In this document: positions 621-32,935 of the stretch, in pieces
Position numbering within the stretch: position 1 is the stretch's first letter
How the letters are laid out: each line of letters starts with the position of its first letter
NCBI RefSeq assembly: GCF_022539665.2
Contig: NC_081333.1
Location: 11,158,971 to 11,222,970, forward strand
Source of the DNA: Daphnia carinata
Lineage: Eukaryota > Arthropoda > Branchiopoda > Diplostraca > Daphniidae
DNA: 64,000 nt
Direction: 5' to 3'
The notes under the pieces: model-generated
Seen by the model: the letters and a program-made list of their open reading frames with translations, nothing else
What the model was told of the DNA's origin: nothing
Database searches by the model: none
Position numbers and translations under genes: made by a program

Positions 621-3482
621 TTAAGAAAAGAATGGTTCATCTTTATGCCACAATTCTTCGAGTGCTTGATGAACAACGGAACTAGTTTCGAAACGTTCAT
701 TCCAGGACTGGATCATTCCTGAAACATTTGCACTATATTCCAATAGCCGAACAGCCTCTCCTGGAAAGTTAACACAAAAAACGTCAATTTTTAACATCTT
801 TTCAGTTAATAGGATTTTTCCCCCTACCTTCCAGACAAGTGTTAGACTGAACGAAAATCTTCCTGGGTTGCTTCTTTTCGAGGATAAGCGATCTCCACTC
901 AGCAAATGGATAAGGACCCGTTGAAGATACTTCTGAGTATTTGGCATACATAGCTCGAGCAGCTTCCAAATTGCCAGTCGACTTATAAATCTTCAACATA
1001 CACAAAGTTGTGTTAGAAAATAGAAAAAAAAAATCTAACGAAAATCAAATAGATTACTTGTAGTTTTCGCAGGAAATTGCCAATGGCTTCTTTTCCAACG
1101 GTGCCGATTTTTGTCCTGTCGAGCGAAAGCAAGAAATCATCTCTGCCGTCACTTCCGATTACTTTGGCAACTTTTACCAAACCCTGGCCTGCTTCCAAAA
1201 GTACTTGGAGGATAACGTATCGCGCTTGGGAATGAGCCTGTAACGTTCAAGAGTGACAAACGAAAACAGCGAGTGAAAAATTTTCTATAAAGCAGACCTG
1301 CATCCATGATTGTGTTTTGGGATTGTAAAATTCCATGGCTCTTGTTGACCCATTCAACAGTAGACTAAGCCAGTTCACGTAAATAATATCTTGTGCCTTA
1401 TCACCTTCGTGACCAAAAATCCTAGAGGGAAAAAAAAGTGTTAATATTTTAGTGAAATCGAGTTTTCGGAAACAGTTACTTGAGGACGTCTTCGTTGAGA
1501 GACAAATAGAGACCGACACATTCTGCGCGGCATTCTTCATACGATGACGAAATGGTGGAAAACTTAGAATCGTATGTTTCTCCCTCTTCATACCAAGACA
1601 ACTATAACACATCCCGAAACAGTATGGTAAGAAGAACAAGATTGGACAAGTCTTTTAACGTATACCTTCTCATCGCCCAACGATGCTTTAACGCTCTCCA
1701 TGTCGAAGTTGTAGGTACCGTCAGGGTTTTGACGAAATAGCTTACCACTACCGTGACCCAATAATTCGTGCAAACCTACTTGCAGCTCAAACGATTCGGT
1801 GTTGTGGCTGATCAGCAACTTCTTATCTTCCTCCGAAATGAAGAAAATATTGGGATCTTTGTAAGAGGCAGGAATCACGTTACCCAATGAAACATTTTTG
1901 AACCCTTCGTCCTGGCGAATTTCACCGTCTAAAAGAACACTAGGTAAATACGCGAACAGATAGCTTAACAAAACAAATAAATAATCTTTACAGTTTGGAA
2001 TGTTAATCCCAGCTGGAATGCCACTGCCACTAAAAGTAAGTACATCCAGAGATGTGAAATCTGGTTTCAGATATTTGTCGGTCTCCAACGTCGACGGCCA
2101 TGGAAGTAGTGGCAAGAAGTTCTCGGCACCAGCCACTAACGTTCCGAACTTGGCAGACATTACTTTGTTGACAACTGCAACAAAACCTTCAAATTCACCA
2201 CGCATACCCGCCGGATCACGGTAAGTTTCAATAAAACCGATGTATCTACACAAATGGATTACATAAGAAAAATTTCCTGCTTAAGCTTTAAAATTGCAAA
2301 GTTTTACGTTTCAATTACTGGTCCTTTGTTTTGAACCCAATGACGCGATCCATTTTTATGATCAGTCAGTGAACCCGTGGTAAACGACTTGATGTATTCC
2401 GTTAGCATAGCAACTTCAACGTCGTTCGAAGCATAGCTCTAGGGGAATTGTTAGCAAATGAAATAAATACCATAGAAACGAACACAATTACAGAAAGGCA
2501 AAATACCTTAGCTTTTTCTAGCTCTTCAACAACTAGTTTCAATAGTGGAGAATAATCTCCGCGTGTCACGCAGAACTGATAACCTTCGAATGTTTCTGGC
2601 TCGCGTGTAATACCGTCCATAGATCCAGTTTCAACGGAGGCCAAACGGATCTAATGGTAATAATAAATCTCGTGCGAAATGCGAGAGCCACAATCGGATT
2701 TTACCTCGTATTTTGTTACACCATTTGCTTCGGTTTTAACTACGCGGTTATTATAACCTTCCATTTGGATTGACTTGAAATAGCGGCTAACAATATCGGC
2801 ATCTTCACTTGTGCAATTAGACGAGAAGTATGTTGTAGTTCCTTTATCACCAAGGCCAAGATGGCACTTCTTGGGGCTCAAATCATAGACCAAATCTTTG
2901 ATACGGTTCCACACCTTGATCAAATCTGTATTCTTCTGGAAAGCTTTTGTGGCAAGTAAAAATTTCTCAAGCTTATCGGCAGCAAGATTTGGAATTATTT
3001 TTGAATCTCCAAAGCTTTTGTAATTTCCCATGTTTGCATACACACCACAGGTGAATACAAGAATAGCCTAAATATAAAAAATTTAGTTTTTAAATCATAA
3101 CACTGTTATAGGCTGCACTGAATGTACAAATTTACCTGGAACTCATCTTCTGACAATCCATTAACTTCCAAGGCTTGTTTCTTGAGATCATCAATGATAT
3201 CATTCTCAAAGACTTGATGAAGAATAGAGAACATGGAACCAGCTTCAATGGATGTCTGCACACAGAACATGTTTATAGTGTAAGAACATTAAATTTAGCT
3301 AGATCACAACATTTACTAACCTGAATCAAAACTACCAATCCACCGTACCATGAAGCCTTGCTCAAATGGTGCGCATAAGCTTTCTCTTTAGCACTTAAAT
3401 TTGTAAAAGCAGTACCACATTCAAGGGGAACCACAGGCTGCTCATTTGGAAGAATGAAATCCTTAACAGCTACTTCAGACAT
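621..3482 (-). CDS. DPP3: Dipeptidyl peptidase 3 (DPP III)
   Basis: Cytosolic zinc exopeptidase of family M49 that removes N-terminal dipeptides from short peptides. Twelve exons read on the minus strand: 3482-3321, 3255-3136, 3067-2705, 2650-2507, 2438-2308, 2245-1992, 1928-1666, 1583-1480, 1421-1298, 1237-1058, 990-828 and 760-621. They sum to 2148 nt (715 aa), close to the family length of about 730. The zinc-binding HELLGH motif lies near residue 445 and the second zinc motif EECRAE in exon 1583-1480; both are intact. All introns are 52-80 nt GT-AG. The start is MSEVAVKDF at 3482, but the exon is open upstream of it, so a longer N-terminus is possible (see the leader exon at 3596-3750). 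The gene is transcribed divergently from TRMT1. Identification is secure. Confidence 0.96.
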
Positions 3483-4180: not shown

Positions 4181-6201
4181 ATGGCTGAAACCGGTAGGGA
4201 AAATATACCTGGCCAGCCTTCAGATGTTCTTTCGCATCCGATAGCTACGATAGAACCACTAGAAAATAGCAACAGTTTAATAGAACAGAAAGAGAAAGAT
4301 GCCAAGAATCAGGGAACCATTATAACAGAAGGAAAAGCACAGGTTCACTATGCTGGATCTGAAGATAATGTTTTCTATAATCCTGTTCAGGAATTTAATC
4401 GTGATCTCAGGTAAAAATCACTAAAGAAATATTAGAAGGTTTCTTAATAAAACATTATTTATACATAAAAGCATTGCAGTACTGAGAGAATTTGCCTTGA
4501 ACCACATCAAAGAACGAGATAAAAGTTTTGTTGGTGAAACATTTCTTAAACCAGGAGAAAGCTATGAGGTATAGAAAAATATTTCATATTATTATTATAT
4601 TTGATTTTATACTGTATACTTTTAATAGCATGGCCTGAATGTCCTTGAAGCCTTGTCTGCCTCTGGTCTGAGATCAATAAGATATGCAAAAGAAGTTGGA
4701 GGTCTAAAAAATATCCTAGCCAATGATTTGTCATCCTCTGCTGTTGAGAGCATAAAAACAAACAGCCAAATGAATGAAGTATCTCACTTGATCACTCCTA
4801 ATGAAGGAGATGCATCGTTAGTAAAGTTTATACCTTTTTAGTCAAGTTTTATTTATCTCCTCATTTTGGTTAGCAAAGGATCTTGATGTATCAACACAAA
4901 CACAAAAAAATCTTTCATTGTGTTGATATCGATCCTTATGGATCGCCTTCACCATTTATTGATGCTGCTGTCCAGTGTGTGACCGATGGAGGCCTTCTCA
5001 TGGTTACTGCCACTGACATGGTATTTACCTTTTATTCCACTTTTGGTATCGTTTCATAACATGACAAAAGTATTGTCTTAGGCCATTCTTTGCGGCAATG
5101 TTCCTGAAACATGTTTCGCTAAATATGCAAGCGTTTCCATTAAAACCAAAGCTTGCCATGAAATGGTAATATTTCCTTCAATGGCAAATTTTTGGTATCG
5201 CTTACGGATGATTTTTTATTTCAGGCTTTGCGAATTATTCTTCAATTCCTACAGACTACGGCTGCCAGATACGGACGCTATATTCGTCCACTTCTTTCTG
5301 TTTCTGTTGACTTCTATGTGCGTCTCTTCGTCGTGGTGCAGACTGGGAAAAATGAATGTAAATCGGCGGCTAGTAAATTGTCAATGGTAATGTTTGTTAA
5401 GCTAAAAAAAAAACAAGAAGATGCATACAAATACCTTTTTATTTTTCCCAGGTGTATCAATGTGTTGGCTGTCATAATTTGACATGGCAACCTCTTATGA
5501 AAAGCGCGGAAAAGAGATATTCACGGGCCCATGGACCCCCAACAGATACAAAATGTGAATACTGCCATTCCCGCTTAAATTTTGGTGGCCCTCTTTATTC
5601 CCAGCCAATCCACGACTTGGAGTTTGTTCAGTCTTTGCTTACCAGTTTGGATAATCCCGAGCTCGGAGAATTGAAAACAGAGAAACGCATCCGCGGTATA
5701 TTAAGCGTAATCTCTGAAGAACTGCCAAACTGTCCTTTGTACTTGAGCCTTGATGCAACGGCTTCAACACTAAAATTAAGCGTCCCTTCTTTAGTTATGT
5801 TTCGATCAGCAATACTGAATGCCGGATACAATGTGTCTCTCTCCCACTGCTACCCCCTCTCCATTAAAACAGACGCTCCTATGTCAGTCATATGGGACTT
5901 GTTTCAAGGTACGTTCTTGTTTCCGTTTAAGTAATCAAAATCAATGGACAGTTGTACGTACTGTAATTTGCATACAGGTTTCGCAAAGAAACAGCATCCT
6001 GATAAAGTTTGGCCACGGCCCTTGGGAGATAAAGCCTCTCCTACTCCGGCTGATTACATCCTGAGCCGGCTTGTCGCAGTCGAAGCTGATTTCACAACTC
6101 ACCCCAAAGGAAACCCGTCTTCAAGAATGCAAAAACTTGTAAGGTTTCAAGAGAACCCGGAAAAGAATTGGGGACCGAAATGCAGAGCGAAAGCCAAGTA
6201 A
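4181..6201 (+). CDS. TRMT1: tRNA (guanine26-N2)-dimethyltransferase
   Basis: SAM-dependent enzyme that makes N2,N2-dimethylguanosine at position 26 of tRNAs. Eight exons: 4181-4410, 4472-4568, 4629-4816, 4879-5020, 5082-5165, 5225-5386, 5452-5908 and 5978-6201 (1584 nt, 527 aa). Family signatures include [15 protein letters not shown] across exons 1-2, the SAM motif [13 protein letters not shown] in exon 3, the catalytic-region motif [11 protein letters not shown] in exon 4, and a CxxC pair with a later CEYCH in exon 7. The protein ends soon after the catalytic fold. It lacks the C-terminal CCCH zinc finger of vertebrate TRMT1, so it is closer in length to yeast Trm1. AATAAA-like signals follow near 6336 and 6406. 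Confidence 0.95.
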
Positions 6202-6967: not shown

Positions 6968-8946
6968 TTAATGCGATAGACGAGGACAACTTGAGTAAAG
7001 TTCGGTGCAGTTCGCGCCTGAGCGGCCCATCATCGCCGCATCCATGTAGGAAGTGAATCCGCCGACATGACGCGTATGCAACAGATAGCTTAAAGGCAAA
7101 CTAGGTGAAACAAATGGTGAGATAAGACTTAAAACTAAATTAAATCTTTTTTAAAACCTGGATAACGAAACAGCCCATCCTGCTTGTCCTGGCGCGGACA
7201 TAGCCAGCCGGTTCATGCGGCACAAAGTTTCCTGAGTGCAGATGGTATTTTCAAGAACTGTGTCTTGCTCCCATAATTCGTGAACCATACTCAACCAAGT
7301 CGGACCGTCCAGCAGCACTGTAATGAAAAATTGGAACCATTTAAATGTATTCCCAAGCAATGCACACAATCAGATGATGCTGGGATTTACGAACAAAGAT
7401 TTGGCGATGGCCCTAAAAGATTTACCATCAGAGAGATCATTATCGTCCATACTACGCGCTGCTGCAAGCGTGGTCGATCTGATGTAGAGAAAGAAGCCGA
7501 GGAGACCCAAAAGTCCCACCAAAAGGATGGGCAAAAGTTTGTTCTTACAACATTCGTCATATCCACTGTACCCGTAACTACTTCCACCCCCGTAACCGCC
7601 GCCATAACCACCTCCTCCGCCATAGCTACTTCCTCCGCCATAACCACCTCCTCCGCCATAACCACCTCCTCCTCCTCCTCCCCCACCCCCACCTTTTTGA
7701 CCACCGTCATCATCGTCGTCATCTCTATTTTTCGGGATGTATTTGGTAGTACCACGATCAAGAGACTCATCTAATCCCGGAATAGATCCGTGCGATTCGC
7801 CATAGTGTACCTTACCAGGAAATCTGTTCGCCTTAGGATTCTCATTCATGTCATAACCAGTCATTGTTTGGTAAGAATCTTTATCTCTGTATCGATTGTT
7901 AAGCCGATTTTGATCATATCTTGAATACCGATCTTCTTCGTAAGTATCATCGCGGCTAGTAAATGACTTTGTATCAAACAAGCCAGCAGGTTCACCAATG
8001 GCACGAGCCGACGACTCTTTGCTTTTGGTACCACCAGCTTTGGGGTTGACATTGGTACTGTGCAATTTGACTTCCTCAACTTCTGCGTAATCCGGACCGG
8101 AACCGTACGCTTCATCATAGTTCTCATCCGGGTAGAAAACGTCAAACGAGTCCCATCCGCCAGGTGCTGCGTTATAACAATTAACTGTGGTGTCAAGGTT
8201 TACTACCTGTCAAGCGTACGTATATTTTGTTATTAAATTACCCCACGTTTCAAATTGTCAATCTGTCGTTACAATGTTATCCGGAAAGCCTCAAGACGTC
8301 TTAAATTATACCACCAGATCGAGTGGGTAGTATCCAGAAGCTTTCGGATAACAGTGTTGATACAAGATTGACAATTCTTTTCTAAACATACCTGAGGTGA
8401 TTCCTCCTCCGATGAACTGTGATATCTTCTGTTACTAATGGACGTTTTTTTACCGTTCTCTGATGTTTCATCAGCATTACGGCGATTACTATTAACCCGA
8501 CGGGTTTTTAACCTAGTACTTCTAATGGCACGAGATAGCGACTCTTCAGGAGCATCGGTCCACTCATAATCATCTACTGATATGGTCGCTGTTCGGAGAC
8601 CCAGGATCCGCGGATCGCTTAAAATGCGTTTGGCCATTTTGCTGACTACTTTGAGAACGTCTCCTTGGACGCAATCTCCATTCAGGCAATAATCGGCAAA
8701 CTCACTACGCGCCATTCTGAAATGCCGGCTGTTGATTTCGTTGCCGGTGCCGATGTCTGACATAGCAAGGAAATCGCCACTTTCAGGATGGTCGTTTGCT
8801 GAAAGACTAATATCAGCTGACGACCTGGAAGTGGTCGTTAAACCGTTGGTCACGACCAACGTCCGAGCGGAAAGCATAACGACTAGAACAGCAGCCACGC
8901 ACTTGCGCTTTCTATAGTGGGATGGCACTGTCGACGGTCGAGACAT
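6968..8946 (-). CDS. Gly/Tyr-rich single-pass membrane protein, gene A (with C-terminal constant exons)
   Basis: Four exons on the minus strand: 8946-8392, 8206-7426, 7317-7158 and 7100-6968 (1629 nt, 542 aa). Exon 1 begins with a basic N-terminus and a hydrophobic segment (signal peptide or anchor) and contains dibasic clusters near its end. Exon 2 carries an acidic DDDDDD run, a low-complexity GGGGYGGGSSYGG tract, then ECCKNK followed by a membrane segment (LLPILLVGLLGLLGFFLYI). Exons 3-4 encode a Cys-containing C-terminal module: DGPTWLSMVHELW, TLCRMNRLA, LSYLLHTRHVGGF and MGRSGANCTELYSSC. The module recurs in gene D. The body-to-module junction is phase 1. I do not recognise the family by name; a cuticle or extracellular-matrix role would be speculation. 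Confidence 0.8.
8262..8372. repeat. Inverted repeat (hairpin) inside gene A intron 1
   Basis: About 30 bp ending in TTATCCGGAAAGC is repeated in inverse orientation, beginning GCTTTCGGATAA, with about 45 bp between. The flanks also match imperfectly (CAATCTGTCG versus CAATCTTGTA). It lies within the 185-nt intron, which is longer than most introns here. It could be a MITE remnant or a splicing-related hairpin. Confidence 0.6.
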
Positions 8947-9804
8947 GCCAACGAATCAATTCAAAAGGTAACTAAAAAAATCACTTTGATATCAAAAATC
9001 AGATGATGCTAGAAGCACCTGTACTTGATTAAGATAGAGGCTTCTTAAGAATTAAAGCAATAGCTAATTGATAATCACTATTTAATTTAGCGAATGGGAA
9101 GAACTAATGTCGACCGCCCAATGAAGCAGCTCAATCTCAACTGATAGCACTAGTAACTGAAAAATAGACGAAGCGTTGAGAATTGAAAGAGGATGGTGGG
9201 CAGTCGGTAATTTTCGACAGGGTACGCCTCCGAGTCTAGGAGGCGTTCCACGACACGAAGGAGAAGTTTTTTTGCCAGCCTCCGGAACAAGGTCGATGAC
9301 CACGATTCACGACTGAACTTATCACCCGATCATAACACAATGGGCTTAACTATCCAAGATTAAACGGCCCTTGCCGAAGGACTTCAGTTGATTGCATTCT
9401 ATCGTGCAGGTATACAAAAAATTTAAATAGGCAGCCGTTAGTTATTTTCCGCTCAATCAAGGCAAGGTAGTTTGCCGTCAATTTTCACGGTGAAAACTTC
9501 ATATAATTTACGTCCTTATTACGTTTCTCAAAACAAATCAAGAGAAGACCTTCGTACGTTACAAACTCTTAGGCGTTAAGAAAACTATGCAAAAAGATGA
9601 ACGTAAATTTCATTTTTCCACATTTTAAATTAAATAATTAATATAAAATCTGTTTTAGACGTACCGGTTACAATACCACAGCCTACCTGCAACAAAATGT
9701 GCAACACGACGCGGAAATAGTTATTCTAAGCGAGACGAAATGGTTGGTCTTTTAACACAATTTTTACTTACTGTAGGCTCATAGCATCTATTTACATTTA
9801 CTAT
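8947..9804. other. Intergenic between genes A and B, no exon seen
   Basis: I scanned the minus strand for the C-terminal module (PTW, ELW, LCRMNRLA coding patterns) that gene B would need after its donor and found none. Small ORFs lack domains. The region should contain the gene A promoter. Confidence 0.5.
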
Positions 9805-10347
9805 CTAGCCAAATATGTATTGGGCAACTGAATCTGTAATCATACCTATGTCCTGATGGGAGAGGAGCTCTTCAAGACTTAAAAGATCATTGGCCATCGA
9901 TCGCTTTCGACGGACTGCTGCCTTCGTAGTACTTAGCAACTGGATGAGGAAGAGGAACAGGAGACCAAGAGCAATGAGAGAGAGCAATCCCAAGTAATCA
10001 TGCTTTTCACAGCACATCTCGGAGCCATAACCTCCTCCGCCATAACTCCCTCCACCATAACCACCTCCGCTATAACCCCCTCCGCCATAACCATAATCAT
10101 ATCGATCTCTTCTGGGAATGGCGCGAGATGAAGTGATCCATTCAGTTCTTAACATATCAGTTGAGCGTCTGATACGGAGATCGCTTCGCAAAATCCCCAT
10201 TAGTGGACGGACAAAAGTCAACATTCGTTTCAGTTCGTACTCGGAATCCAATGGTTCTTGGTCGTTGGCACCGACCAAATAACTCAATGGATCCATGACC
10301 AGTAAGATACAACTTCCGAGTTTAATATAGGTGCTGACTATTACCAT
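9805..10347 (-). CDS. Gly/Tyr-rich membrane protein, gene B (body exon)
   Basis: Single body exon of 180 codons if read through. The order is a hydrophobic N-terminus (signal peptide), the conserved ELKRMLTFVRPLMGILRSD block, an Arg-rich segment, a GGYGGG tract, a CCEKHDYLG signature, a membrane segment (LLSLIALGLLFLFLIQLL) and a basic cytoplasmic-type tail (RRKRS). A phase-1 donor (HQDI, ATAG/gtatgat) lies at about 9846, at the same relative position as the spliced donors of A and D. Without splicing the ORF ends 13 codons later. No acceptor exon with the C-terminal module lies before gene A. Either it terminates here, or it splices to the gene A constant exons. Confidence 0.7.
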   Translation of the reverse strand: MVIVSTYIKLGSCILLVMDPLSYLVGANDQEPLDSEYELKRMLTFVRPLMGILRSDLRIRRSTDMLRTEWITSSRAIPRRDRYDYGYGGGGYSGGGYGGGSYGGGGYGSEMCCEKHDYLGLLSLIALGLLFLFLIQLLSTTKAAVRRKRSMANDLLSLEELLSHQDIGMITDSVAQYIFG

Positions 10348-10963
10348 TATTAGGTGCTATTAATTAGAGGAACACTATCACTCAACCGTTGGCAAGGCAA
10401 AAATCGGAGAATAAATGTCAAAGATCGGACACTAGCAATAGAGAATTCAGTTCACCAAAGAATGGAGATAAAACAAGGTACGAATTTCTTTCAAACGACA
10501 AGAAGGTTTTAACAAGTTACCTCTGCGACTTTCGGGAGTGAAATGTAAAAATAAAGCTCCTCCCATCTCTTATTCGTTAAAACTCCGCCTCCGGATTAAT
10601 CCGGCCCTTAAGGGTAGAATTATTTTGCTCCAACCCCGCTGTGTGGGACAGCCCCAATAGGCACCTGGACGACGTAATCAAAATAATGCTAGCAAAAACA
10701 ACGTCTGATATGTTTTTGCCCGCGTTTTTGTGTTTCCTCGAAACAATTCAACTGCGAAAAGTTCGAAGAGAAGTTTATAATTGAATCGGAATTTGAAATA
10801 CTTTAACCCCCAACTCTCGCAGGTGAATTACCTAAAGGACGAAGTAAATCAAGGGAAATAATTGACACAGAGGTAAAAACGTTTGATTCGTTACTAAGAT
10901 TAAGCATAATCAACTAACGCTTACGATTGAATTGATAGAACGAAGTTAACAGCAGCAAATGAA
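10348..10963. other. Intergenic between genes B and C
   Basis: No exon, RNA gene or minus-strand AATAAA was seen. It contains AATTCAGTTCAC at 10444-10455, about 97 bp upstream of the gene B start. The identical 12-mer lies upstream of gene E. Confidence 0.5.
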
Positions 10964-11536
10964 TTATTTACTATACGCAATTGCCTTACCACTATTATAA
11001 TCGTTCGAGCGGATCCATCTGTCCTCATCGATGCCTCTCTCCGCAGATCGTTTATTGCTTCGACGGCCAACTGGTTTACGGGCAATGGCAACTAGATAAA
11101 GCAAGAGACCAGCCAGAGCGAGAAGAGCCAATATAGGAAGAAGATCATCTTTTTTATCACAGCAACCGTAACTTCCACCTCCACCACCGTAGCCGTAGCT
11201 GTAGCCATCTCGATCGTAATCGTTACGATGAAATCTATTGCGATCGCGATTGATGTCACCGTAGCGTAGACCGTAGTAGTCTTCTCTGTTAGATCGAGCT
11301 GAGCGGGTGGAATGTCCACTTCGATTGATGGTCCGATCAGTCCTCAGGATGGCCATCAATGGCGTGACGAACTTCAACATCCACTTTAATTCACGTTCAG
11401 ATTCTAGTACCGAATCAACAATCGCTTCCGGCAGGTCATCGACCTCTTCCGCGCCTGCCACCCCATTGTAGGGGTTAGTGTAGCAAGATACTAGAAACGA
11501 AGCTAATGCCGTCAAAACACACACCGATTTCTTCAT
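10964..11536 (-). CDS. Gly/Tyr-rich membrane protein, gene C (body exon)
   Basis: 190 codons if read through. It has a signal peptide (KKSVCVLTALASFLVSC), an acidic propeptide-like region, the block ERELKWMLKFVTPLMAILRTD, an Arg/Asp/Tyr-rich segment, a short GYGGGGGSYG tract, CCDKKDDLL, and a membrane segment (LPILALLALAGLLLYLVAI) followed by a basic tail. A strong phase-1 donor (AATAGTG/gtaagg) sits about 25 nt before the stop. The CCDKKDDLLPILALLALxxLLLYL stretch is nearly identical to that of gene D, which points to recent duplication. No local C-terminal exon was found. Confidence 0.72.
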   Translation of the reverse strand: MKKSVCVLTALASFLVSCYTNPYNGVAGAEEVDDLPEAIVDSVLESERELKWMLKFVTPLMAILRTDRTINRSGHSTRSARSNREDYYGLRYGDINRDRNRFHRNDYDRDGYSYGYGGGGGSYGCCDKKDDLLPILALLALAGLLLYLVAIARKPVGRRSNKRSAERGIDEDRWIRSNDYNSGKAIAYSK

Positions 11537-12033
11537 GTTTTCTAACTTTTCTCAGATAAACAACGAATAACAAAGTCTTCAAGATTACGAATGACTACGC
11601 TGGAGCTGTTTCGGGCAGGTGATAGTCTGAGGGCAGTACACAGAACCGGCAATGGAATCATTCAATCAGAGAATGAAGGCAGAAACTTTTCTTGCATGAT
11701 CATTTTTGTCTATGAGCTATAGACACTAGTTAATTACAACCGTACGCCGCAACAAGTTTTTATCATAGTCCCTCCGTCGACTCCGCCTCATTCTGTAAAT
11801 AGCCCATGCCTTTTCGTTCCACATCCTTCCCATCATCGTCCTTCATATTTACGCCCTCCCGTGAACTTGCGGTCATTGTCTTAGTAAGACGGTCACTGGA
11901 TCCCCTTTTTTTTTAAGACCTGTAACTAGCGTGCAACATCTTAACATGCCTGGCACTCTGTATCGTTTTGCCTTTAGCTATTTCTTCCAGAGCTTAAAGA
12001 CAAACTGACAGAAGACTTGAAACATTTGACGAA
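11537..12033. other. Intergenic between genes C and E, no exon seen
   Basis: The minus strand contains no match to the C-terminal module and no AATAAA. Nothing else was recognised. Confidence 0.45.
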
Positions 12034-12546
12034 TTACTTACTTTCTTCTTCCCGTTTAGGCGGTGTGATCATCCGGCGACGTCGACCGCCCGTGACAGTA
12101 GCGTTGAGCAGGAAGAAAAGAAAATAAGAGATGGCCACCAGAACAAAACCGGGCACGAAAGTGTGGAAGTCCAATTTCTCACAACATCCTTCTTGGTAGC
12201 TTCCTGACGAGGAGTAATCGCTACTGCTGTATGATGAAGAGTATCGTTTATAGTCGTTGGTGATCCTAGATTTTAGATGTTCCAGGCCAATCATAAATTC
12301 ATCTCCCATCCGGCTGACGAGATCTATTCCGGGAGGAAATTGGCGTTGAACCGATGGACTGTTAGGTTTGTCATTCCTTTGGATCAACGTTCCGTCGCTA
12401 TACTGATCCGATTGATTAACATGGTCTGATCCATAGAATTGCTTCGGCGCAAACTGTTGATCCACTTGTCCTTCTGTCACCAGCACAACAACAGTCAACA
12501 ACCACCAGAAGAATAAAACACCCCGTCGATGTCTGTTGAAATTCAT
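12034..12546 (-). CDS. Membrane protein of the same cluster, gene E (body exon, Ser/Tyr-rich)
   Basis: 170 codons if read through. It has a signal peptide (GVLFFWWLLTVVVLVTEG), a Gln/Asp/Pro-rich segment, and a Ser/Tyr run (YSSSYSSSDYSSSGSY) in place of the Gly/Tyr tract. GCCEKLDFH, a membrane segment (FVPGFVLVAISYFLFFLL) and an RRRR basic tail follow. It ends GAA A/gtaagtaa: a near-consensus phase-1 donor overlaps the final Lys and stop codons. It is the most diverged member but keeps the CCxK-TM-basic order. No C-terminal exon lies between it and gene C. Confidence 0.68.
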   Translation of the reverse strand: MNFNRHRRGVLFFWWLLTVVVLVTEGQVDQQFAPKQFYGSDHVNQSDQYSDGTLIQRNDKPNSPSVQRQFPPGIDLVSRMGDEFMIGLEHLKSRITNDYKRYSSSYSSSDYSSSGSYQEGCCEKLDFHTFVPGFVLVAISYFLFFLLNATVTGGRRRRMITPPKREEESK

Positions 12547-13857
12547 CTTTCGTTATTTGTCTCTGTGCAGGTTGAAAAAAAAAAATTTGCAAGCTGATGG
12601 AAATAAAATTCGGTCACGACCTCCGATTGCAAAAATACGAAACTGCAACAGAGAGGGGAGCAATCAACTCAAATTGGAAATGAAGAGCATATAATTCAGT
12701 TCACAGTGGCTCGTTCGGGGACAGACTGGCAGGTTTCTCCTACATTTCAATGTTGGGCTGCACAGGTAACATGCTCTGCCCAGTAATTTCTCAGCAAGCT
12801 AGTTATCTAGTCTGCTTTTTCAAGTCAAAGATTTATTCTTCAAAAATCGCCAGTAGGCAGGAGATGTGGCAACGTCTTCCCTCATGTCTCGTTTCGTATT
12901 CCCTTCAAAAAAAAAGAAAAACGAAGGTTATGTCAGTGTCTAGCACTAGGGAAGATTGTTTCATTATCTCGGCCACAAAAACCAACGTTGAACCGATTTA
13001 CTAACCTGAAGCGTTTATTGCGTAGACATATAACGGAACAACGGATTAGTTTGAACATGGATGAGTGTTGATTAACTGTTCTTTGGCAGCAGGAACTACA
13101 CGAGACAAACGTAATGATATTTTATAAACGTTCGAAAATTGTGTATCGCCCAAATCTAAACTACATATTCAACTGTTAATCAATCAAACTAATAAGTAGC
13201 TTTCTTCTTCATTTGTTACGTTTGGATACTATCTGTTCCAAATGACTGGAATAACAACCAAAAAAAATACCACAATAAATGTAGTCTCTATTTTGTAAGA
13301 TTTTAAAAGATACCTACTGGACATTTTGCATATTGCCTTACGGTGGTTAATGTTTAAAGAAATCCAGTAAATTCATTTTCTCCATTATCAGTTTTCTTGG
13401 TGTTTGCTTTAGGTTCTACATGTATGAACTTGATACCTGTGGTAATTCGTTTGCAAAGAAGCACATTGAGCTGAAAATGTAAGGATTACATCCTTAGATG
13501 ATGAGTTTCATAATCCCAGTCTGATCATTTACATACAAAGTATAGCTTTATATATTCCACGATGTTTTTACCGAATTTTCGTCTGTATTTAATTTTCAGA
13601 TTTTCGACAGAAACATTGACACCAACGAATTCCCACCCGATGTCGTTAACTAACCGTAGCCAATCCCACATGATGAAGAAAGAATCACTGTTGAAGGTAT
13701 AAATAAATCATAGCACACAGATTTTGTTTTATAATCGGATTGAGGTCTAACGTACGTAAATCATCATTAATTAGCCGAATTCATCAAGGTGATTTGTAAT
13801 TGTAGAATCATGAATCCTTCTGTTATGTTTAACGGATAGATATGTATGACTTCAAGC
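12547..13857. other. Intergenic between gene E and gene D
   Basis: Contains AATTCAGTTCAC at 12693-12704 (gene E promoter side) and a minus-strand AATAAA near 13015. The remainder is AT-rich with no supported ORF. Confidence 0.45.
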
Positions 13858-15408
13858 CTAATTAATGCGCGAACAGCTACTGAAGATTGCAGTGCAGTTT
13901 TCTCCATAGCGGCCCATTAACGAGGCATCAAGTAACTAAGGAAGCCGCCTTGATGTCGATGATGGAGCATGTAGCTGAGCGGCCAACTAGACAGCGAGAC
14001 GGCCATCCCGGTTGTGCCTGGGGAATCGAGAGCTAGTCGATTCATGCGACAGAGCGCTTGGAGTGTGCAAGCATCGCCGGAGTCGTTTTCGTCAGCATTC
14101 CAGAGTTCGTCTACCATTGAAATCCATGTGGGAGCATCCATCAATTCTGAAAAAAAAAATTCCAACAAGAAACATGACAACAACCAAAAAAAAAAGAAAC
14201 TAAGGTAACTTGCCTCATAATAATATTATCTTCGATATATGTAACAGTAATTGCTAATGGCTTCGTACATAGTTGATGCCAAAAAAAGAAAAACTGGTCG
14301 TTGAACTACGCCTGAAACTTCTGTCCGTATAATTTACCCAAACATTCTCTATAGTAATTGGCCCAAGGCGAGCAAGTATAGAACGAGCATTTAACCCTTC
14401 AGGACAGTGTTCCCGGCGTTGTTTGATTAGCTTGAATGTTTTTAGAATTTTATATTCTTTGATTGAACTCTGGCTCTTCTATTTACTATAGCAATTTCTT
14501 ATAATAAGCAGCCGTTGGGATCAGACTCCCGCTCGCATGACATCAGTCTATGCCTTTCTACTACGTATGCTATTTACATAGGAAAGTTTTGCCGCGTAAA
14601 AATTTGATGTCAGCACAACAGGTACGTATCAAAAGTCGATGATAATTTGCTATACTATTATCAGTTTTTCTCGACAATAAATTTATCATAAATGTTTTCA
14701 GTTGACAATGATGATTAACAACATACCTCTATCAGGCTGATCTTCATCCACGTAGAGATGATCGTCATCAAGACTGTTTGGATTTCTTCCTTCATCCGTT
14801 TCCATCGCGACTCTCCGCCGTCTCCGGGCCGCTACTGTCGTCGTTGCAATAGCGATCAAATAAAGCAGTAAAAGCGACAAAGCTAACAACGCCAATATAG
14901 GCAAGAGGTCATCCTTTTTGTCGCAACAACCGTAACTACTTCCACCGCCATAACTACTCCCGCCGTAACTGCTCCCACCACCGTAACCAGAGGACGAAGA
15001 ATAGCCACCGCCGTAACCACTTCGATCGGCTTGCATCTCTTCTGGATATTTGTTGTACTGATTGTACATTGGAGGACGCCTGCCAGCACCCCGTTTTCTG
15101 CTCTGACCGAACACTTCTCTGGCCACCCGCTTATTCAGTCTTGATGTGGAGATCTCAAAATTTTTCTTCTGGAAGATACCCATCAAAGGTGTTACGTAGA
15201 GCAGCATCCGTTTCAATTCGAGCTCCGATTCAAGTTCATCTTCCACTTCTTCAGCTGCGTTGTTGTCTAGTAATTTATTGTAGGAAAAAGAGGCCATATT
15301 GCCCTCAGTTGCGGCAGTCTGTCCGTCCATCGAGTGGTCGGCTGCGTGACCGGCAATAAAAATCAACAGTAGACTACACACAGTTTGTGTGCCAATGAAC
15401 TTGATCAT
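13858..15408 (-). CDS. Gly/Tyr-rich membrane protein, gene D (with C-terminal module; frameshifted near its end)
   Basis: Exon 1, 15408-14727: signal peptide (CSLLLIFIAGHA), ELELKRMLLYVTPLMGIF block, Arg-rich region, GYGGGSSYGG tract, GCCDKKDDLL, a membrane segment and a basic RRRRR tail. It ends in a phase-1 donor (AGAG/gtatgt). Exon 2 begins at 14146 (ttttcag acceptor) and encodes the module DAPTWISMVDELW, ALCRMNRLA, LSYMLHHRHQGGF. Read directly it stops at 13917. Compared with gene A, one base is missing near 13935. In the shifted frame the conserved LMGRYGENCTAIFSSC continues to a stop at 13858. A TATATA lies about 40 bp upstream of the start. The intron that gene A has inside this module is absent here. 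Confidence 0.75.
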
Positions 15409-18303
15409 TTTGTTTACCTTCCGAGTTAACTAGAATATGCAAGCGGTATATAGTAGGGTATCAAATTTTTGAAAAAAAACTATGAACTTCTTGTATAATA
15501 CCGGCTTTTCTGGTAGTTTTAGAAGCAGGAATGGAGATGGGCAGACTGCATTTGCCACTGGATGAAAATTAACTGACTGAAGCTGCGTATCTGTGAATGG
15601 TAACTACGAAATATTCATGAATGCAGTTGCTGGCGTTCACTTTTTTTCTTCTCATTTTCTTGACCTTTTTCTTCTTAGTGCTTCACTTCCATAGAAGTAC
15701 AGTGTTAACGTTAGACTGGACATCCTCCCGGAAGCTCCTCCTCTCGCTGCGACCCAGCAGGCAAAAGACTCTAGAAATCAATTGTTGTTTCTTGCGTGCA
15801 GCATATAAATGTAACGGTACAAGATGTTGGTTCAACTTCTTTAGTTAATCCGCACATGATCCCACGAAGAGACGGTAATTTTATTGTAGGTATTCATACA
15901 AGTCCCCACATGAATCTTAAAATCTCCTACAATTTTGTCCAATTTTGTCCTCTAGGTAAGCAGTAGACCCTGCGGAGCTAGTATTATACATGCAAAAAAT
16001 TAATCTATGGATTTCCTTGACTGCCCTCCGATCGTTACAGATACGTATTATAAAATAGCAGACTACATTAACGATTTATTGGCCATGCCCAGGTGGAAGG
16101 ACATCGCTATCGATATGTACCGTCAGCGACGTAAAGAATAGTGCTACTAGAAAATAGACGTCAGAAAATGCATCTTTACAAATAAAGTGACAGCATTACA
16201 TCAAGCGTAGATTACGGCGGAATCAATGAGACGTGACGCAAGTGCATTTATTGCACGGCAATAAATCACGGGAGAGCAGCACCTGTTGGCTTTGCCAGTT
16301 GCTACACTATCGACTAGTTGAGCGGAAAAAATTCGGAGCCGACAGGTCTTGGGCTTGTCAACCATGATGCTTCGGCAAAATTATACTGCCTCTCACATTC
16401 GTCAAGAAAAACAAAATAAAATATAGGCAAGTATAACGAACTTCAGATTCACGTTACGAAAATGTCGTTACCAGTTTATTTTATACCTTCCATAGACTAC
16501 TTTAGCACGCAATTATCGTGTCTTACAGAAGTTTGCACGATATTCATTTGGATCAACATGGCGACAGTCAAGAATCATCACCTACCACGAAAGTTGGGAG
16601 GATAGTTTCCAAGATCGTTTTTACTTGAAATATGATTCAACATTGCGTGACGACCAGAAGGCGTCACGAGCGTTCGAGGTAATCGTATCCTTGTTTCTTT
16701 TTGTTTTGGATATTTGTTACTTAAATATTTTATCATTTCGTTTATCAAAGGATAGTTAAAGAGCAACAGGCTTTTCGGGAGATTATCACGTTACAAATTT
16801 CGAAAACAGTTGTCGACAGAAAAAGCGATTTGGCGCCAAAAGAGCTAATTTAAATGCAATTGCAGAAAGGCTTGACCCACTGTTAGAGCGTTCCATGTAT
16901 CTGCGTCCGTTGATCGCCAATTTTTTGCAAACTCTTATCGATTTAAAATGCGACATTACAGCGATGAGCGAGGAAAACCACTCATGAGAAAGCATCTTAC
17001 AAGAATTCGTCACCCCTAAAGAAATTGAGTTGCATTGCTTAGCATGAACATGCAGTGAAAACAAACTGGAGGAGACGCAATGGCTAGCCATTGTGAGCTT
17101 CAGGGAATTTCAAAACGCCCCGTGAGAAACGGGCAGTCGACTTTGCCCATATAACGCAGGTAATGCCTACATTATCAAAGTAAATCATGCTTTTTAAAAT
17201 TTGAACCTCTCTATGCCCGATGAAGTAACCTTGGAAAACCGTTACCTTTCATGTTTTTCTCGACACAGCATATCAGCAGTCCCAAAAGGCGACGACAGAA
17301 ATTAGGCATAATCGGTGCACGGATTATAACGTTACAAAAAAACGTTGTCCGGAGAAAATTGTGTTTTGCCGAAGCTGTAGGTTATCACGTCATGCACTAA
17401 TTTGCCATCACTTTATTCCCGTTGTCGATGCAGACTACGGTGGAATGACGGCTTGAAACTTTCGATTAGAAAGACTTTTCATCTGCCTATGGGAGTCACG
17501 CTCCTGACCTGTCTATTCACATCGAACTCAGTGGCATCATTCTCATCATCAGACTCCCATCAATCTTGTTACCAGAGGTTGTTGTCCTTTTCGTGCGGCT
17601 GCACCATATCCGTAAGTAGAGAACTAGCTATCATATTTATTGTGACGCGTGAAAAAAAAACGAAATCTTTTTGCAGTGCTAACAGATCTAGAAGAAACAT
17701 CTACACACTTCATCTCTGTCAGCGTAATTTATTTTTTCGTGAGCCTATACTCGGAATCAACATGAGATGGCATTTTTCTGCTTCATCGCCGAACTATTAT
17801 GTCAAAGACCATTCGCAAATTACATGGAAACTATATCGAAGTGTAAGTGTTGATTTTCAACATCTTTTTCCGCCCGCCAATATAAAAAAACGCTGTCAGT
17901 GAAGCAGGTAAGCTAATACTCTTGTAATGAATTTTAACTGATGGGTATTTTTAATAATGTGATTTGCAGTATTATTCACAGCAATTGGAACTTCCAGTAT
18001 CGAAGGAAGCGAAGAGCGCCTCGTATCTGAACAAATAATAATTCCACAAACTCATCCCGAAATCAGCAAGTTGAAGTTTTCAAATACGTCAGATCCCTTG
18101 TAAACTATTAATCTTTTGTTTCAAACTCATCTTGTACGATCCCGTCCATGCGACGGAAAAATTTCAGTCCAGTCTCTAACGCTTTTAAGTAAAGGAACAC
18201 AACATTGCAAAACACGTGGAAGTAAAATGTATCGTTCTGTAACAGTTATCAACACAGTTCATGTACAGAATAGTAAACACATAATCTGGACAAGTCAGGC
18301 ACA
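15409..18303. other. Long intergenic stretch, nothing recognised
   Basis: Contains the gene D promoter side (TATATA near 15445) and otherwise AT-rich sequence with scattered small ORFs, the longest 17402-17902 plus, which has no domain, no codon bias and no neighbouring exons. No tRNA, snRNA or transposon protein was seen. Confidence 0.4.
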
Positions 18304-19225
18304 TCATAAGGCATCAGAGACATTCAGTGAAGCGACCGTCTCATCGTGAGTAGCAGCTTTCGTCGACTTGTGTAGATTCAATTCCAAATAAAGAAAATAA
18401 AGAAGAGGGCAGGCTAAAAGCACCAAGAGCGCCATTCCGAGTATGTGAGTCCAGGAAAGGCCACAATCGTCACCTTGGCAGTCAGTTCGGTTTAGGCGAA
18501 CAGTCCGCCGCAGGCGTTCAGCATCAGGGATAAACGTAGAAGTTGCAGGATCGTTACTGTCAATGTCATATACTCTTGCTTTTTCTTTCAACCGTTGAAG
18601 ATCTTGGTCCACTTGCTTCAAGAATTCTAGAGAATTGGAAGGTTTGAAATCCCCAGATTTGGTATCTCCGCATGGCAGAAGGCTTGCTTTATCACTGGGA
18701 AGCCTTTCTGTCAATGAAGAGTGCTGGCGTACAGGAATTTTTAAAGTTCTTCGAGCAAAGAATTCAGCTTCCTTCTGAATGTTGTTTGCAACCTTCAGTT
18801 CAAAAACCTAAGTAAATTTTTTTTAATAAAATGGAAATACCAATAATTTTTTAAGTGATTAAAGTAGCACTGTCATACTGTGCACCGATAGTGAAGGGCT
18901 AACCCTTGCAAAGTCTCCTTTGGTTTGATTAGATGTTCTCTATATTCTCGTTGAATATCAGAAGGACTGGAAAGAGATAAATGGGAAGCTGAACCAGGCC
19001 ATCGTTCTTTTCTTTGGTCAATATTAGTTAGTCTTCGTAACTTGGTACTCGGCAGGGAATCATTATCATCATCAGTACTACAATAGACAATAAAATTATA
19101 AGGGTAAGGCTGTTTAATGCATGTTATATTCGAGGTAGTAGATGGTAAAACCTTGAATCTTTTCGACTGGCCGCTTTTTCTTCATAGCTTATCAACCGGG
19201 AGTATCCGTAGGATCGGTTTGTCAT
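18304..19225 (-). CDS. LYSMD3: LysM-domain, C-terminally anchored membrane protein (LYSMD3/4-like)
   Basis: Three exons: 19225-19152, 19077-18879 and 18807-18304 (777 nt, 258 aa). The LysM domain spans exons 2-3 (HLIKPKETLQGLALHYRCT, then VFELKVANNIQKEAEFFARRTLKIPV). The segment FLKQVDQDLQRLKEKARVYD is typical of the LYSMD3/4 family. A membrane anchor (ILGMALLVLLACPLLYFLYLEL) lies about 30 residues from the end. The vertebrate proteins are Golgi/secretory-pathway proteins with LysM on the cytosolic or luminal side; exact activity is unknown. The start is the ATG before TNRSYGYSR. It is divergent to KRTCAP2. LYSMD3 versus LYSMD4 cannot be decided from sequence alone. Confidence 0.85.
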
Positions 19226-21421: not shown

Positions 21422-21580
21422 TTCTTTCTATAAGAATATATATAGTACCGGACGGGTTGTGCGTGTGTGTTAAGTGTTCAGTCAGTAAAGTGTTTTGAAA
21501 CTTATTAGTTGTCGGAAAATGATATAAGATTTTGAAGTTTTTTTTAGCATGTAACAGAGATTAACAATTTTAGCATCAAA
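21422..21580. promoter_or_regulatory. Compact bidirectional promoter (TYW3 transcript / PIAS)
   Basis: Only about 160 bp separate the divergent start codons of the small ORF and PIAS. It holds a short GT-rich tract (gtgcgtgtgtgt) near 21457. No TATA box is obvious. Confidence 0.4.
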
Positions 21581-24529
21581 ATGTCAGAAACTGAAGTATT
21601 AAAGAACATGGTGATGAGCTTTCGTGTCTCGGAATTGACTATGTTGCTGAGTTTTGCTGGACGTAGTCGATCAGGTCGGAAAACAGAATTGCAGATGCGA
21701 GCTCTGGAATTGATCAAATTACGATCTTCACCTATAAATGCCAAAGTTCGCGAATTATATCGGTCAATTCAACAGCAAACAGTGGCAATGGGACAGAGTG
21801 CTGCAGAAACCACACCACCTTACATTGGTGCATCAACCAGATCAAGCTCATCTCTCTCGCCATCCAAATCCAGTAATTATTCTGAAATGGAGAGGGCTGC
21901 AATCCAAGGAAGAAATCCTTACATCCATACCAGTGGTCTGCCTTACTCAACAGGTTACACTTCTAAGCAAGCTGTGTCTGGCGGTGGTTCACAACCATCA
22001 TTTCCGGTTCACCCTGATGTCCGATTGAAGAGATTACCATTCTTTGATTCAATAGCAGAACTTCTACGCCCTTCCAGCTTGGTCCCTACAGGGAATTCTC
22101 GATATCACGACACAAATTTTGTATTTCATCTCACACCTCAGCAAGCAACAGACATAGCAAGTTCAAGAGATGCCAGGCCTGGGTCCAAAATAGACTATTT
22201 GAATCAAATTCAAATGAGGTTTTGTCTCTTGGAAACATCATGTGAGCAGGATGACAACTTTCCATCCAACCTCTCAGTCAAAGTAAACAGTAAACTAGTG
22301 ACCTTGCCGAATCCTATCCCGACCAACAAACCGGGGGTAGAACCTAAACGGCCACCAAGACCTGTCAACATAACTTCACTGTGCAGGCTTTCACCAACAG
22401 TGGCTAACCAGATCAATGTGACGTGGTCATCGGACATGGGCGGGAGAGGTTATGTTATGGCCATCTATGTTGTCCGGCGTCTTGCCTCCACTGATCTTCT
22501 CCAGAGATTGCGAACAAAAGGAGTACGTCCAGCAGAATATACTCGTGGCCTCATCAAAGATAAACTAGAAGACGCCGACACAGAAATTGCCACCACATCT
22601 CTTAAAGTGTCGCTCGTGTGTCCTTTGGGGAAAATGCGAATGCAGTTGCCTTGCCGAGCAACATCTTGTTCACATCTACAATGTTTCGATGCCTCGCTTT
22701 TTCTGCAAATGAACGAACGAAAGCCAACTTGGGTCTGTCCCGTCTGTGACAAATCTATTCTCTACGATCAACTTGCGATTGATGGCTACTTTTCTGATAT
22801 TCTGAATTCACCTCTTCTTCCGGCTGATATTATGGAAGTTCAACTGAACGTCGATGGAACATGGACCGTGCTGTCGGCTAAAAAAGAAACGAAAAGTAGT
22901 ATTACTTTCTTTTTGGGATGGAAAGAATTATAAATTAACTTTTTATGATTATTTTGTAGAAAATACAAGTGGAGAAAGTTCAGTTAACTTGGACGTCGTC
23001 GAGGAATTGCCAACTAATCCGACGAATCCAAAGGTAGAGACTATTGATGAAACAGAATTGGAATTAGTTTGCGAAGGTCCTCCTCCCAAGAAGAAAGCCC
23101 CTATGGTAGTAGACCTGACGCTTAGTAGCGACAGCGAAGAGGACAGTGACACTTTGATGAGTATCAAGGAGCGTATGCTTAGTCGTCAGCGTAGCTCCGG
23201 CAGTCAGTCAAGTTGCCCTGGTGATTCAGCCGACGAAAACGCAGCAGCTACGAATGGTATTGGGAGCTTATTCTTATTTTCAAAAAGCGCAATCAATTTC
23301 ACATTTGCCTTTAATAATTTATTTAAAGCACCTGTTAACCTCAGCAGCAACGTGAATACAGTCACAGGGAGCAGTAACAGCAGTCTAAGTTCATCAGCAT
23401 CGAATAGCTCTGCGAGACCAGCTCAAAACTTTGAATCTTCGTCAGGGTTAGTTTATTCCCCACCTTGTATTGATTTGGATGACGATTCTCTTTAAATTAA
23501 AAATCAAAACAAAAAACAGAAAACAAAACAACAATCCTGCTATTTTCCTGTCATAAAGATATACTTGAAGGGATCCATGTACCATCGTGCTTGAGTGACG
23601 TTCGCAAGGCATGCTTCTGATCCATTTGCTTCTGTGTTTGATTCGGTATACTTGATGGTTCACCTTCAAAACCATGATTATACTGTTGTGATTATTCCTT
23701 CGCTATTCTAGATATCCAGAGTATCATGGTGTTGTGATTCATTTCCACGCTCCACTAGTTCTTTTTACAGGTTTCAATAAAGTCGTCTTCTCGGTTTTGC
23801 TTTTATGTTTTCGTTTGTCCGTTTCAAAATTCTTTGCCTCGGTTCGCAAAAAATTTCAGCATGACATTTTATGGGTTGATTTTCTACTGCTCATTTCGAA
23901 CTTCGGCCTATTTTTTTCCCCCTTGTTCTGGTAGCGGTATTTAATTTCTTAGTAATTTTTCTTGGCTTTTTCGCATGAAGTTTCCTGATTCGTTGAGAGT
24001 CTGCCAACTTGGATGAATGGCATTCTTTTCTCATCATTATATCGTTGTTTTCTAATTGTGAACTTGAAATATTTGTTATCGTGACCCTCGAAGCGCTTTT
24101 TATCGAATCCATTGCCTATTTAATTTTCCAGAATTTTTGGAATGAAATTAAATTATTTTACAGCGTTAACAGTCCACTTGCATACAATTATATGGCCGGG
24201 AGCAGTTATGGAAGTCCGACTTACTTTTCCTACAGTTCATCAACTACCAATGGACAAAATCTTTATGCACCGTATTCCAATTTTGCCTATTCCTACGGAG
24301 GTATGATTTACTGTTCATGTTTTGTTTTTTTAAACAAACAACTCACTCATGTCTGTTGAAATTGTTGACAGGTACGAATGAGCTACAAAGCGTATTAGGC
24401 GACGCGATGAATGGCCACACCTTGCCAACTGCAGCGACCCAACATCAATCCCCAAATAATTCGGTGCCACCTGTTAGAAATAATTATAGACGATCCCAAT
24501 CCCCACCAGATGTAATATCTTTGGACTAG
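21581..24529 (+). CDS. PIAS: PIAS-family E3 SUMO-protein ligase (Su(var)2-10-like)
   Basis: Transfers SUMO to chromatin and transcription proteins in the nucleus. Five exons: 21581-22895, 22960-23256, 23329-23446, 24164-24300 and 24372-24529 (2025 nt, 674 aa). Domains: SAP DNA-binding (about residues 10-45, VMSFRVSELTMLLSFAGRSRSGRKTEL), PINIT (about 140-290), and SP-RING (about 340-395, with VCPLGKMRMQLPCRATSCSHLQCFD and WVCPVCDKSILYDQL). A SUMO-interacting motif (VVDLTLSSDSEEDSD) follows in exon 2. The C-terminus is Ser/Tyr/Asn-rich and ends PPDVISLD. If the 717-nt intron 3 is retained, translation ends at 23495 with CIDLDDDSL, so a shorter isoform is possible. The first exon holds both catalytic domains without an intron. 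Confidence 0.94.
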
Positions 24530-31083: not shown

Positions 31084-32935
31084 TTAACATCGCCGCTTGA
31101 AAACTTTTTTTTCCAGACGAGATCTCGACGAATTGTTTAGTGTCTTCAAATCCGTAAGATTGGGAAACGGGTTTTTCCTGAGCCGTTTTCCCCTCGTCGG
31201 CATTGTTAGATCAACACCCGTAGCAGCCTCAAGAAAAAAAAGGTTATTTCTTTTAGACAGGATATCAAAATATCGTTACTATACCTTAATTTCCGCAAGT
31301 AAAGCGGGATCTTGCCATTCGGGTACCGCATCTTTGACGGGAGTGCGCAATGTTAAAGGATCTTTGGGTCGACCTTGTTCATCACGAGCGACAATTAGTC
31401 CATGAAAAGGACATTTTTTTCGATCTTTTCTAAGACAAAGTTTTCCATTTGGTAGTTGAGCCCTGCAAGACCATTTAACTGGACAGAAGGCTTCCCCTAG
31501 TTCTACGGGATGACTAACCAAGTCTATTGTTGCTGAAGAGCCGCTTTCCGGATCCTGAACCCAATAACTTTCCACGGTGTTTCTAGTTATCAAGTTAACC
31601 AAATGAAATCAACAGTAACAAAATTAATAAAATGTTTTAGTCACCGTGAAAATGTTGGAGCCGGTACACTAGACAGCGAAGTTGCGTATGAATCTATATC
31701 AAGAGGCAACGTCCTTTCGTTGTTTTTTCTACGCCTTTTACGGCATAGATATCCATGGGATTCTGGCTTAGTTTCCACAGTAGCGTCTGTTGTGCTAAAT
31801 ATATCGGTTAAATTTTCCTCATGGCTGTCCAAATCAGGTACAGTTTCTAAATCAGAATCGGAAGAGCAGTCTAAATCGCTATGTAATTTGCAACTTGCAA
31901 GATTAGTTTCTTGATATTTTTTGATCGTCAACTCCACTTTCATTTTCAAGTCAAGAATACTTTTTTGCAATTTTTCTTCAGCCCCTAGTTTAGCTGAAAT
32001 GATATTCCACTTAAAAACAGCAGGTAGCCACCGACCAGTGAGCAATCGATATTGATCTTGCATGCATCTGATTAATTCCCGATTATGTTGGTTCACTTCG
32101 ATGATTTGAAAAGGTTGGACATCGATTACAAGGCTGAATGTTGCGTTATTGCTTATGCCATGCGCCCTGAAATCACATGTGTCTGAACTATCTGGATCTT
32201 CACACCCGTTGGGTGCCTTGATGGCAAATTCATCAGGCAGCAACAACTCCAGTCCATTTTCAATTTGTGTAAGACAATCCCTAATTTCGATTTCTTCAGT
32301 AGTTACTTCTTCTTTTAATACTTTCAGTTTCTCTTTTCTCACAGCAGTCAATTTAGCCTCTTTTTCTTGCATCCTTTGTCTCTCCTGAGCTGATCTAGCT
32401 TCCATATCTTCAAAATCAACAACTTTACTTTTCTTCAAATATTGAAATCCAATTTTTAGCTTTTTGTAAGTCTCGCCATAGGTTTCATACCATTCTTTAA
32501 TAGTTTTGGTTGCAAGAACTTTTAATTGCTTCAGTGCTGTAGAAGGTGGTGGAAGAGGAGTATTAGGGTCTATTTCTAGCACCAATTTGGAGAAACACTG
32601 GAAATCTGCAATTAAGAGCTCTCTGAAGTGATGTGACCTTTTGAATAACTCTTTGATTATGAGCAATGATGACAAACGAATCTCTGAATGCATTTGGCTC
32701 AAGTGATGTATGACAATTTTGAAGGCTTCATTCACATACACATCTGAAATTCTGAAAATTTTAGATCAGCCAGTGCTTACACCTTACACAACAGGAGTAA
32801 ATGGATTTACCGACAGATGTTTTTAATCTCTCTCAATTTTGATTCCTCTATCTGTTTCAGACCACTGCTGACAATATTTTCAATGGTCTGTCCTAACTTC
32901 GCGATCAAACTGATGTCCGCCAACTTTAGATCCAT
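31084..32935 (-). CDS. UVSSA: UV-stimulated scaffold protein A
   Basis: Transcription-coupled nucleotide excision repair factor that binds stalled RNA polymerase II with CSB/CSA and recruits TFIIH and USP7. Four exons: 32935-32811, 32751-31645, 31582-31285 and 31227-31084 (1674 nt, 557 aa; human 709). The N-terminus (about residues 1-150) is the helical VHS-like domain. The middle is a charged coiled coil ([24 protein letters not shown]). The C-terminal DUF2043 region has [20 protein letters not shown] and KKCPFHG zinc ligands and ends with the family's LTDLK...[12 protein letters not shown]. An acidic Ser/Asp patch ([22 protein letters not shown], about residues 340-370) is a candidate TFIIH-binding region by analogy. 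Confidence 0.94.

Follow-up and report, generated by a model that had tools for sequence, protein, structure and literature searches.

The stretch of the Daphnia carinata genome analysed here (64,000 nt, positions 11,158,971 to 11,222,970 of NC_081333.1; hereafter the window) is part of contig C3 of a 108-Mb genome and carries five related membrane-protein coding units, or bodies, all on the minus strand and in the order D, E, C, B, A. We consider it likely (probability about 0.8) that these bodies belong to an alternative-first-exon locus whose 3' exons are shared, E, C, B and A using one C-terminal tail that resembles the Pfam domain DM4_12. In such a locus, each of E, C, B and A would be preceded by its own promoter, one of which fires, and each body would encode a complete signal-ectodomain-membrane segment. 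The transcript from any chosen promoter would extend to a common 3' end after gene A, and the donor of the chosen body would be spliced to an acceptor at 7317, with the intervening bodies spliced out. The outcome would be several membrane proteins with one common DM4_12-like tail, and D, lying upstream, would have a tail of its own. For this species we infer the joining, the choice of body by promoter, splicing in cis and the participation of C from the genome sequence and from gene models of related species.

Body exons and the C-terminal module

Every body specifies a hydrophobic stretch at the N-terminus, a Gly/Tyr or Ser/Tyr tract, a Cys-Cys (CC) pair and a membrane span, and a clearly basic stretch follows the span in D, E, C and B but not in A. 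As judged by hydropathy alone, there is a single membrane span, positioned right behind the CC pair. Body exon D (14727..15408, minus strand, as are the other exons of the locus) has a Gly/Tyr tract and the CC pair within CCDKK, and ends at the donor GTATGT at 14726. It is followed by body exons E (12042..12546, donor GTAAGT at 12041), C (10990..11536, donor GTAAGG at 10989) and B (9846..10347, donor GTATGA at 9845), and then by gene A, the body of which is divided between exon 1 (8392..8946) and exon 2 (7426..8206, donor GTAAAT at 7425), the latter having a phase-0 acceptor and coding for the CC pair and membrane span. The A tail comprises 97 residues over two exons, the putative shared C-terminal exons 1 (7158..7317) and 2 (6968..7100, with the stop codon). 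When exons and phases were re-derived, a phase-1 GT donor was found at the end of all five bodies, as the initial annotation had claimed with coordinates right to within one base, and the phase-1 acceptor of the A tail was again placed at 7317. Since the acceptor of A exon 2 is in phase 0, joining the phase-1 donor of B, C or E to it would break the frame. All window bodies lie upstream of the A tail on one strand (E, C and B within about 5 kb of it), and this single downstream set of constant exons is phase-compatible with every one of them. Such a tandem row of large homologous exons on one strand is a feature of multi-variable-first-exon clusters, the bodies here being predicted first exons.

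The distribution of the C-terminal module is consistent with sharing. Across the whole window, a six-frame scan placed the motifs PTWxxM and LCRMN behind D and A and nowhere else, in agreement with the earlier assignment of the module to these two genes and not to B, C or E. A whole-genome search with the A tail returned eight matches at an E-value of at most 10: A itself (two exons), D (two pieces), their counterparts A2 and D2 (three pieces) in a second cluster about 4 Mb away on the same contig, and one weak match on contig C6 (E-value 0.0165, 36%). The strong matches in that search were only at A, D, A2 and D2, with none near E, C or B, and a genome search with the DM4_12 model (PF07841) gave 18 matches, likewise none near B, C or E, the other DM4_12 genes lying on other contigs and elsewhere on C3. 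Private copies of the module after B, C and E, having no candidate nearby in the window scan or in either genome search, were rejected.

The A tail is 60% identical to the D module and 56% to that of D2. Compared with DM4_12, for which the curated cut-off is 22 bits, A scores 15.5 bits as a whole protein and 19.6 bits as tail alone, both below the cut-off, and the Artemia protein P0013 is also below it (17.5 bits), while the D types pass (P0001, 23.5; P0002, 22.8; D2 tail, 27.4 bits). The A module is thus best described as resembling DM4_12 in sequence, with D-type relatives that qualify. DUF1676 was not listed at E-values up to 10 in the six plus five proteins scanned, which does not place them among the Osiris proteins, and Pfam scans of the same proteins revealed no cadherin or glycosyltransferase domain, which sets them apart from protocadherins. 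An AlphaFold2 model of P0079, a D. pulex protein described below, made with nine relatives, contained helices only and was too poor for a fold search (mean predicted local distance difference test score 52; predicted template modelling score 0.27).

The D module was initially regarded as a second shared C-terminal set. A similar module is indeed present (13918..14146, read to an in-frame stop), but sharing was not seen, and compared to its paralogue in D2, which is open to its end, it is frameshifted: its reading frame meets a stop prematurely, and what is left of the conserved sequence, including the last cysteines, is found in a different frame (13860-13930, minus strand). The frameshift may reflect an assembly error, a polymorphism or decay. 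With the D module situated before E, C and B in the direction of transcription, only the A module would be reachable from them by ordinary splicing.

Joined proteins and conservation at the donors

Three protein searches, with 78, 24 and 11 hits that overlap, retrieved public gene models and predicted proteins of other species, and several of these join a body to an A-type tail. In P0027 (D. sinensis GHT06_012734), residues 1-167 match window E (82% identity) and those from 168 onward match the A tail (99%). P0079 (D. pulex RefSeq LOC124192619 isoform X2) matches E2, the second-cluster counterpart of E, over residues 40-215 (68%) and the A tail from residue 216 (92%); its isoform label implies that annotators assigned more than one product to this gene. 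P0097 (D. pulex DAPPUDRAFT_225832, partial) matches B to residue 166 (64%) and the first 22 tail residues from residue 167 (91%). In all three, the switch coincides exactly with the donor, the body running to its final residue and the tail following from its own first residue, and these E- and B-type proteins carry no A-body sequence. Two Joint Genome Institute models, P0084 (E-like) and P0028 (A-like), have different bodies and 96 of 96 C-terminal residues in common, and the same was found for P0013 (D/C-like) and P0098 (A-like) of Artemia. Different bodies on one tail, as expected of a variable-first-exon cluster, are present in the models of related species, C excepted. Joining across the donor is also seen for D-type bodies, in P0001, P0009 and P0014, and the D body, aligned over 43% of its length, shows 85% identity to a D. 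magna model. In one of the protein searches there were 17 E-type hits, three of them carrying the tail, 13 continuing into the donor, presumably as unspliced genomic readings, and one (P0082) doing neither.

A joined protein could also arise if the tail were added by trans-splicing of separate pre-mRNAs, which would be compatible with all of the joined proteins, as sequence alone does not separate cis from trans. The bodies, however, share a strand with the tail and lie a short distance upstream of it, so cis-splicing suffices, and P0027 keeps to one cluster, its body being 82% identical to E against 50% to E2 and its tail 99% identical to that of the window. P0097 does not decide between the two, its body being slightly nearer to B than to B2 and its 22 tail residues equal to those of A2. 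We regard trans-splicing as the most improbable of the explanations considered here.

Sequence conservation changes abruptly at the donors. Mean pairwise identity is 0.74 before and 0.15 after the donor among E types (15 rows), 0.60 and 0.28 among C types (20 rows), and 0.41 and 0.13 among D types (19 rows), where the values after the donor exclude pairs with fewer than four post-donor residues (78 of 105, 120 of 190 and 78 of 171 pairs kept, respectively). Omitted from the alignments were P0082 (E-like, lacking the donor dipeptide), the joined P0027, P0079 and P0084, and C- or D-like hits that did not end as expected; since this end was the criterion of selection, the uniformity of the donor dipeptides is by construction. 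D served as the control, being joined across its donor in the three models named above. As the drop in identity past the donor resembles that of D, E and, less sharply, C behave like a real exon end.

These data also bear on the possibility that B, C and E are separate single-exon genes read through to a nearby stop, the joined proteins elsewhere being prediction artefacts. An in-frame stop does follow the donor in every body, at a distance of no more than about 2 to 45 residues, and in D. magna the RefSeq model for C (P0056, LOC123469381) ends by such read-through, with GKAIP, past the presumed donor. The peptides that follow the donor diverge, however, varying from 0 to 46 residues in E, which is the pattern of D, a body joined in P0001, and the joined models come from three annotation sources. 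If the gene order in those species is as here, the models skip long open bodies, which a predictor would be unlikely to do without transcript support, and P0084 and P0028 have one tail yet lie on different contigs (at most 3126 and 3497 bases). Separate genes are, in our estimate, an unlikely explanation, though the least improbable of the alternatives.

The second cluster and the upstream regions

The second cluster contains seven bodies, in the order F2, D2, E2, C2, X2, B2, A2. The pairs D/D2, E/E2, C/C2, B/B2 and A/A2 are reciprocal best matches (46-57% identity) and occur in the same order in both clusters, so the block was probably duplicated. A phase-1 GT ends all seven bodies (F2 and A2 as judged by eye), with a weak donor consensus in F2 (GTAACT), D2 (GTACAT) and A2 (GTAATC), and strong module matches follow only D2 and A2. 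The two clusters together have 12 bodies (five and seven, leaving aside a possible relative of F2 in the window) and four modules, and the bodies without a module of their own retain the donor. When the genome was searched with the D body, 13 matches had an E-value of at most 10; the two clusters account for 12 of these, and the remaining one, weak and with stops, is on contig C1. X2 (G000:C3:7076454-7075941), an extra body between C2 and B2, carries a phase-1 donor but is not clearly matched by any body in the window's cluster. The possible relative of F2, which is the body upstream of D2, is an open frame upstream of D (18304-18807, minus strand) with 42% identity to F2 over 33 residues (E-value 0.002); no phase-1 donor was seen at its end, and it may be a terminal family relative. 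In the gene model P0002 (D. sinensis GHT06_013300), an F-type body and a D2-type gene are merged, probably because two neighbours were run together in annotation.

Comparison of the clusters also addresses whether B, C and E might be spliced to private short C-terminal exons, unlike the module, within the gaps that follow them. Phase-1-compatible AGs and short frames can be picked out by eye in each gap, and a few short, weak peptide matches to the second cluster remain, the best of which is gapped (blastp-short, E-value 0.002) and starts 80 bases into the C-B gap. Near the donors, however, no convincing conserved stretch was obtained when gaps were compared with their second-cluster counterparts, the clear matches lying upstream of the next body, and the E and B joins that were found lead to an A-type tail. 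Private exons are accordingly rated very improbable.

Four of the five body pairs (D, E, B and A) have a block conserved between the clusters about 65 to 360 bases upstream of the start codon. Those of D (15716..15767), E (12684..12765) and B (10412..10477), all on the minus strand, are 73%, 74% and 77% identical to D2, E2 and B2, respectively. The blocks of E and B both contain GTGAACTGAA, which is also found in B2 and, with one change, in E2 (it was noticed first and then counted). The block of A (9105..9144, minus strand, 82% identical to the second cluster) is a putative promoter, with an initiator-like TCAGTT (A at 9142) and a match resembling the downstream promoter element (DPE) at +28; at A2, as at A, the block opens with an initiator-like sequence and has the DPE-like match correctly spaced from it. 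A second putative promoter, that of C (11643..11676, minus strand), has an initiator-like TCATTC (A at 11674) and a DPE-like match at +28, and there is a match upstream of C2 as well. This initiator-DPE combination thus occurs upstream of A, A2, C and C2, or in four of 12 regions against 0.09 expected by base shuffling, and no motif common to all upstream regions was found. Taken together, the upstream features are compatible with one putative promoter per body, the motifs themselves being suggestive only. An Rfam scan found nothing, and a bacterial promoter scan is meaningless for an animal genome.

The initial annotation also pointed to a lack of polyadenylation signals downstream of B, C and E. 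No AATAAA is present in the gaps after E, C and B, and there is one ATTAAA, at 9086 in the B-A gap. Since only about 1.1 AATAAA would be expected there by shuffling, the absence means little and was not used as evidence; the second-cluster gaps E2-C2 and X2-B2 do contain AATAAA.

Several points weigh against the shared-tail arrangement. What speaks for joining consists of gene models and protein predictions made for species other than this one. No C body on an A-type tail was found among the hits of the three protein searches, and the D. magna C model reads past its presumed donor; of the splicing of B, C and E to the A tail that was originally suggested, the E and B joins have parallels in related species' models and the C join has none. 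C and C2 also showed no conserved upstream block in the between-cluster comparison. The initiator-DPE pattern was defined after A had been seen, leaving only the C and C2 matches as independent, and it is absent from eight of the 12 upstream regions, including those of D, E and B. An acceptor-like tract, noted by eye, lies just upstream of the E start codon, so E may not be a true first exon. The Artemia proteins P0013 and P0098 are two annotations of apparently one contig, P0013 looks like a merged two-body model, and the pair may reflect annotation differences.

The lineages of Artemia and Daphnia split deeply within the branchiopods and, if the Artemia pair is sound, it suggests that the arrangement is old in this group. 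More tentatively, and with real doubt, one may imagine that single-span surface proteins of this kind are conserved throughout the branchiopods, in brine shrimp and water fleas alike, with the block duplicated in Daphnia, and that the promoter chosen determines the entire outer part while the DM4_12-like tail stays fixed. Crustaceans would then have a new diversity system of the protocadherin kind, perhaps one in which the choice depends on cell type. We do not rate this reading higher because of the dual annotation of the Artemia contig and the choice of promoter pattern after the fact.

Related systems and neighbouring genes

The architecture itself is already known, and the Daphnia family looks like a new member. 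In insect odorant and gustatory receptor loci, long tandem first exons are spliced into shared C-terminal exons (PMC6175461). Such loci (Blattella Gr60a-m; Drosophila) are like the Daphnia locus in their long alternative first exons but belong to another protein family, the Daphnia proteins being single-span and Gly/Tyr-rich with a DM4_12-like tail, and the Daphnia locus differs further by the second, private module copy beside D. Vertebrate UGT1, GCNT2 and protocadherin loci combine variable first exons with constant exons (PMC1885805); compared to these, the Daphnia cluster is far smaller, with four or five bodies per tail, and in place of a motif common to all upstream regions it has only GTGAACTGAA, in E, B and their counterparts. 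Another arthropod example is chelicerate sDscam, where promoter-preceded 5' cassettes are joined to a constant exon and the intron after the variable exon is often retained in mRNA (PMC4835542). Those cassettes encode immunoglobulin domains, generally over two or four exons, and are unrelated to the Daphnia proteins. Intron retention of the sDscam kind suggests, by analogy, a possible reason for the read-through C model of D. magna.

The tail itself recalls the four-cysteine C-terminal module of DM4/DM12 (PF07841) and Osiris proteins. DM4_12 occurs in two Osiris proteins of planthoppers, and a signal peptide and a membrane region are the rule among Osiris proteins (PMC12825958). The Daphnia proteins differ in lacking DUF1676, and sharing of the module among bodies is not mentioned for Osiris in the excerpts of that paper. 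In the searches made of an open-licence library, no report was found of such an architecture in the Daphnia/Artemia family, in LOC124192619 or in DM4/DM12 proteins.

If the shared-tail reading is true, a family of unknown function gains a logic, that of interchangeable outer parts on a fixed tail, and the architecture extends beyond receptors, adhesion molecules and detoxifying enzymes, for which it has mainly been discussed. The reading is directly testable in Daphnia, a standard laboratory animal. Current gene models are not consistent in how they represent the bodies, some showing them as separate genes and others as isoforms or as parts of merged genes.

Elsewhere in the window, a long frame at 26623-28359 (plus strand) consists of repeated TPAKET-like units rich in Lys, Pro and Thr; it lies in a stretch with an AT skew of 0.3 and has no Pfam match. 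Unremarkable neighbours with Pfam matches include genes for a peptidase M49 of the dipeptidyl peptidase III type (1588-2280, minus strand), a TRM tRNA methyltransferase (5401-5934, plus), a PIAS-type protein with PINIT and zf-MIZ domains (21548-22933, plus), UVSSA (31641-32765, minus) and an M14 carboxypeptidase (51338-51835, plus).

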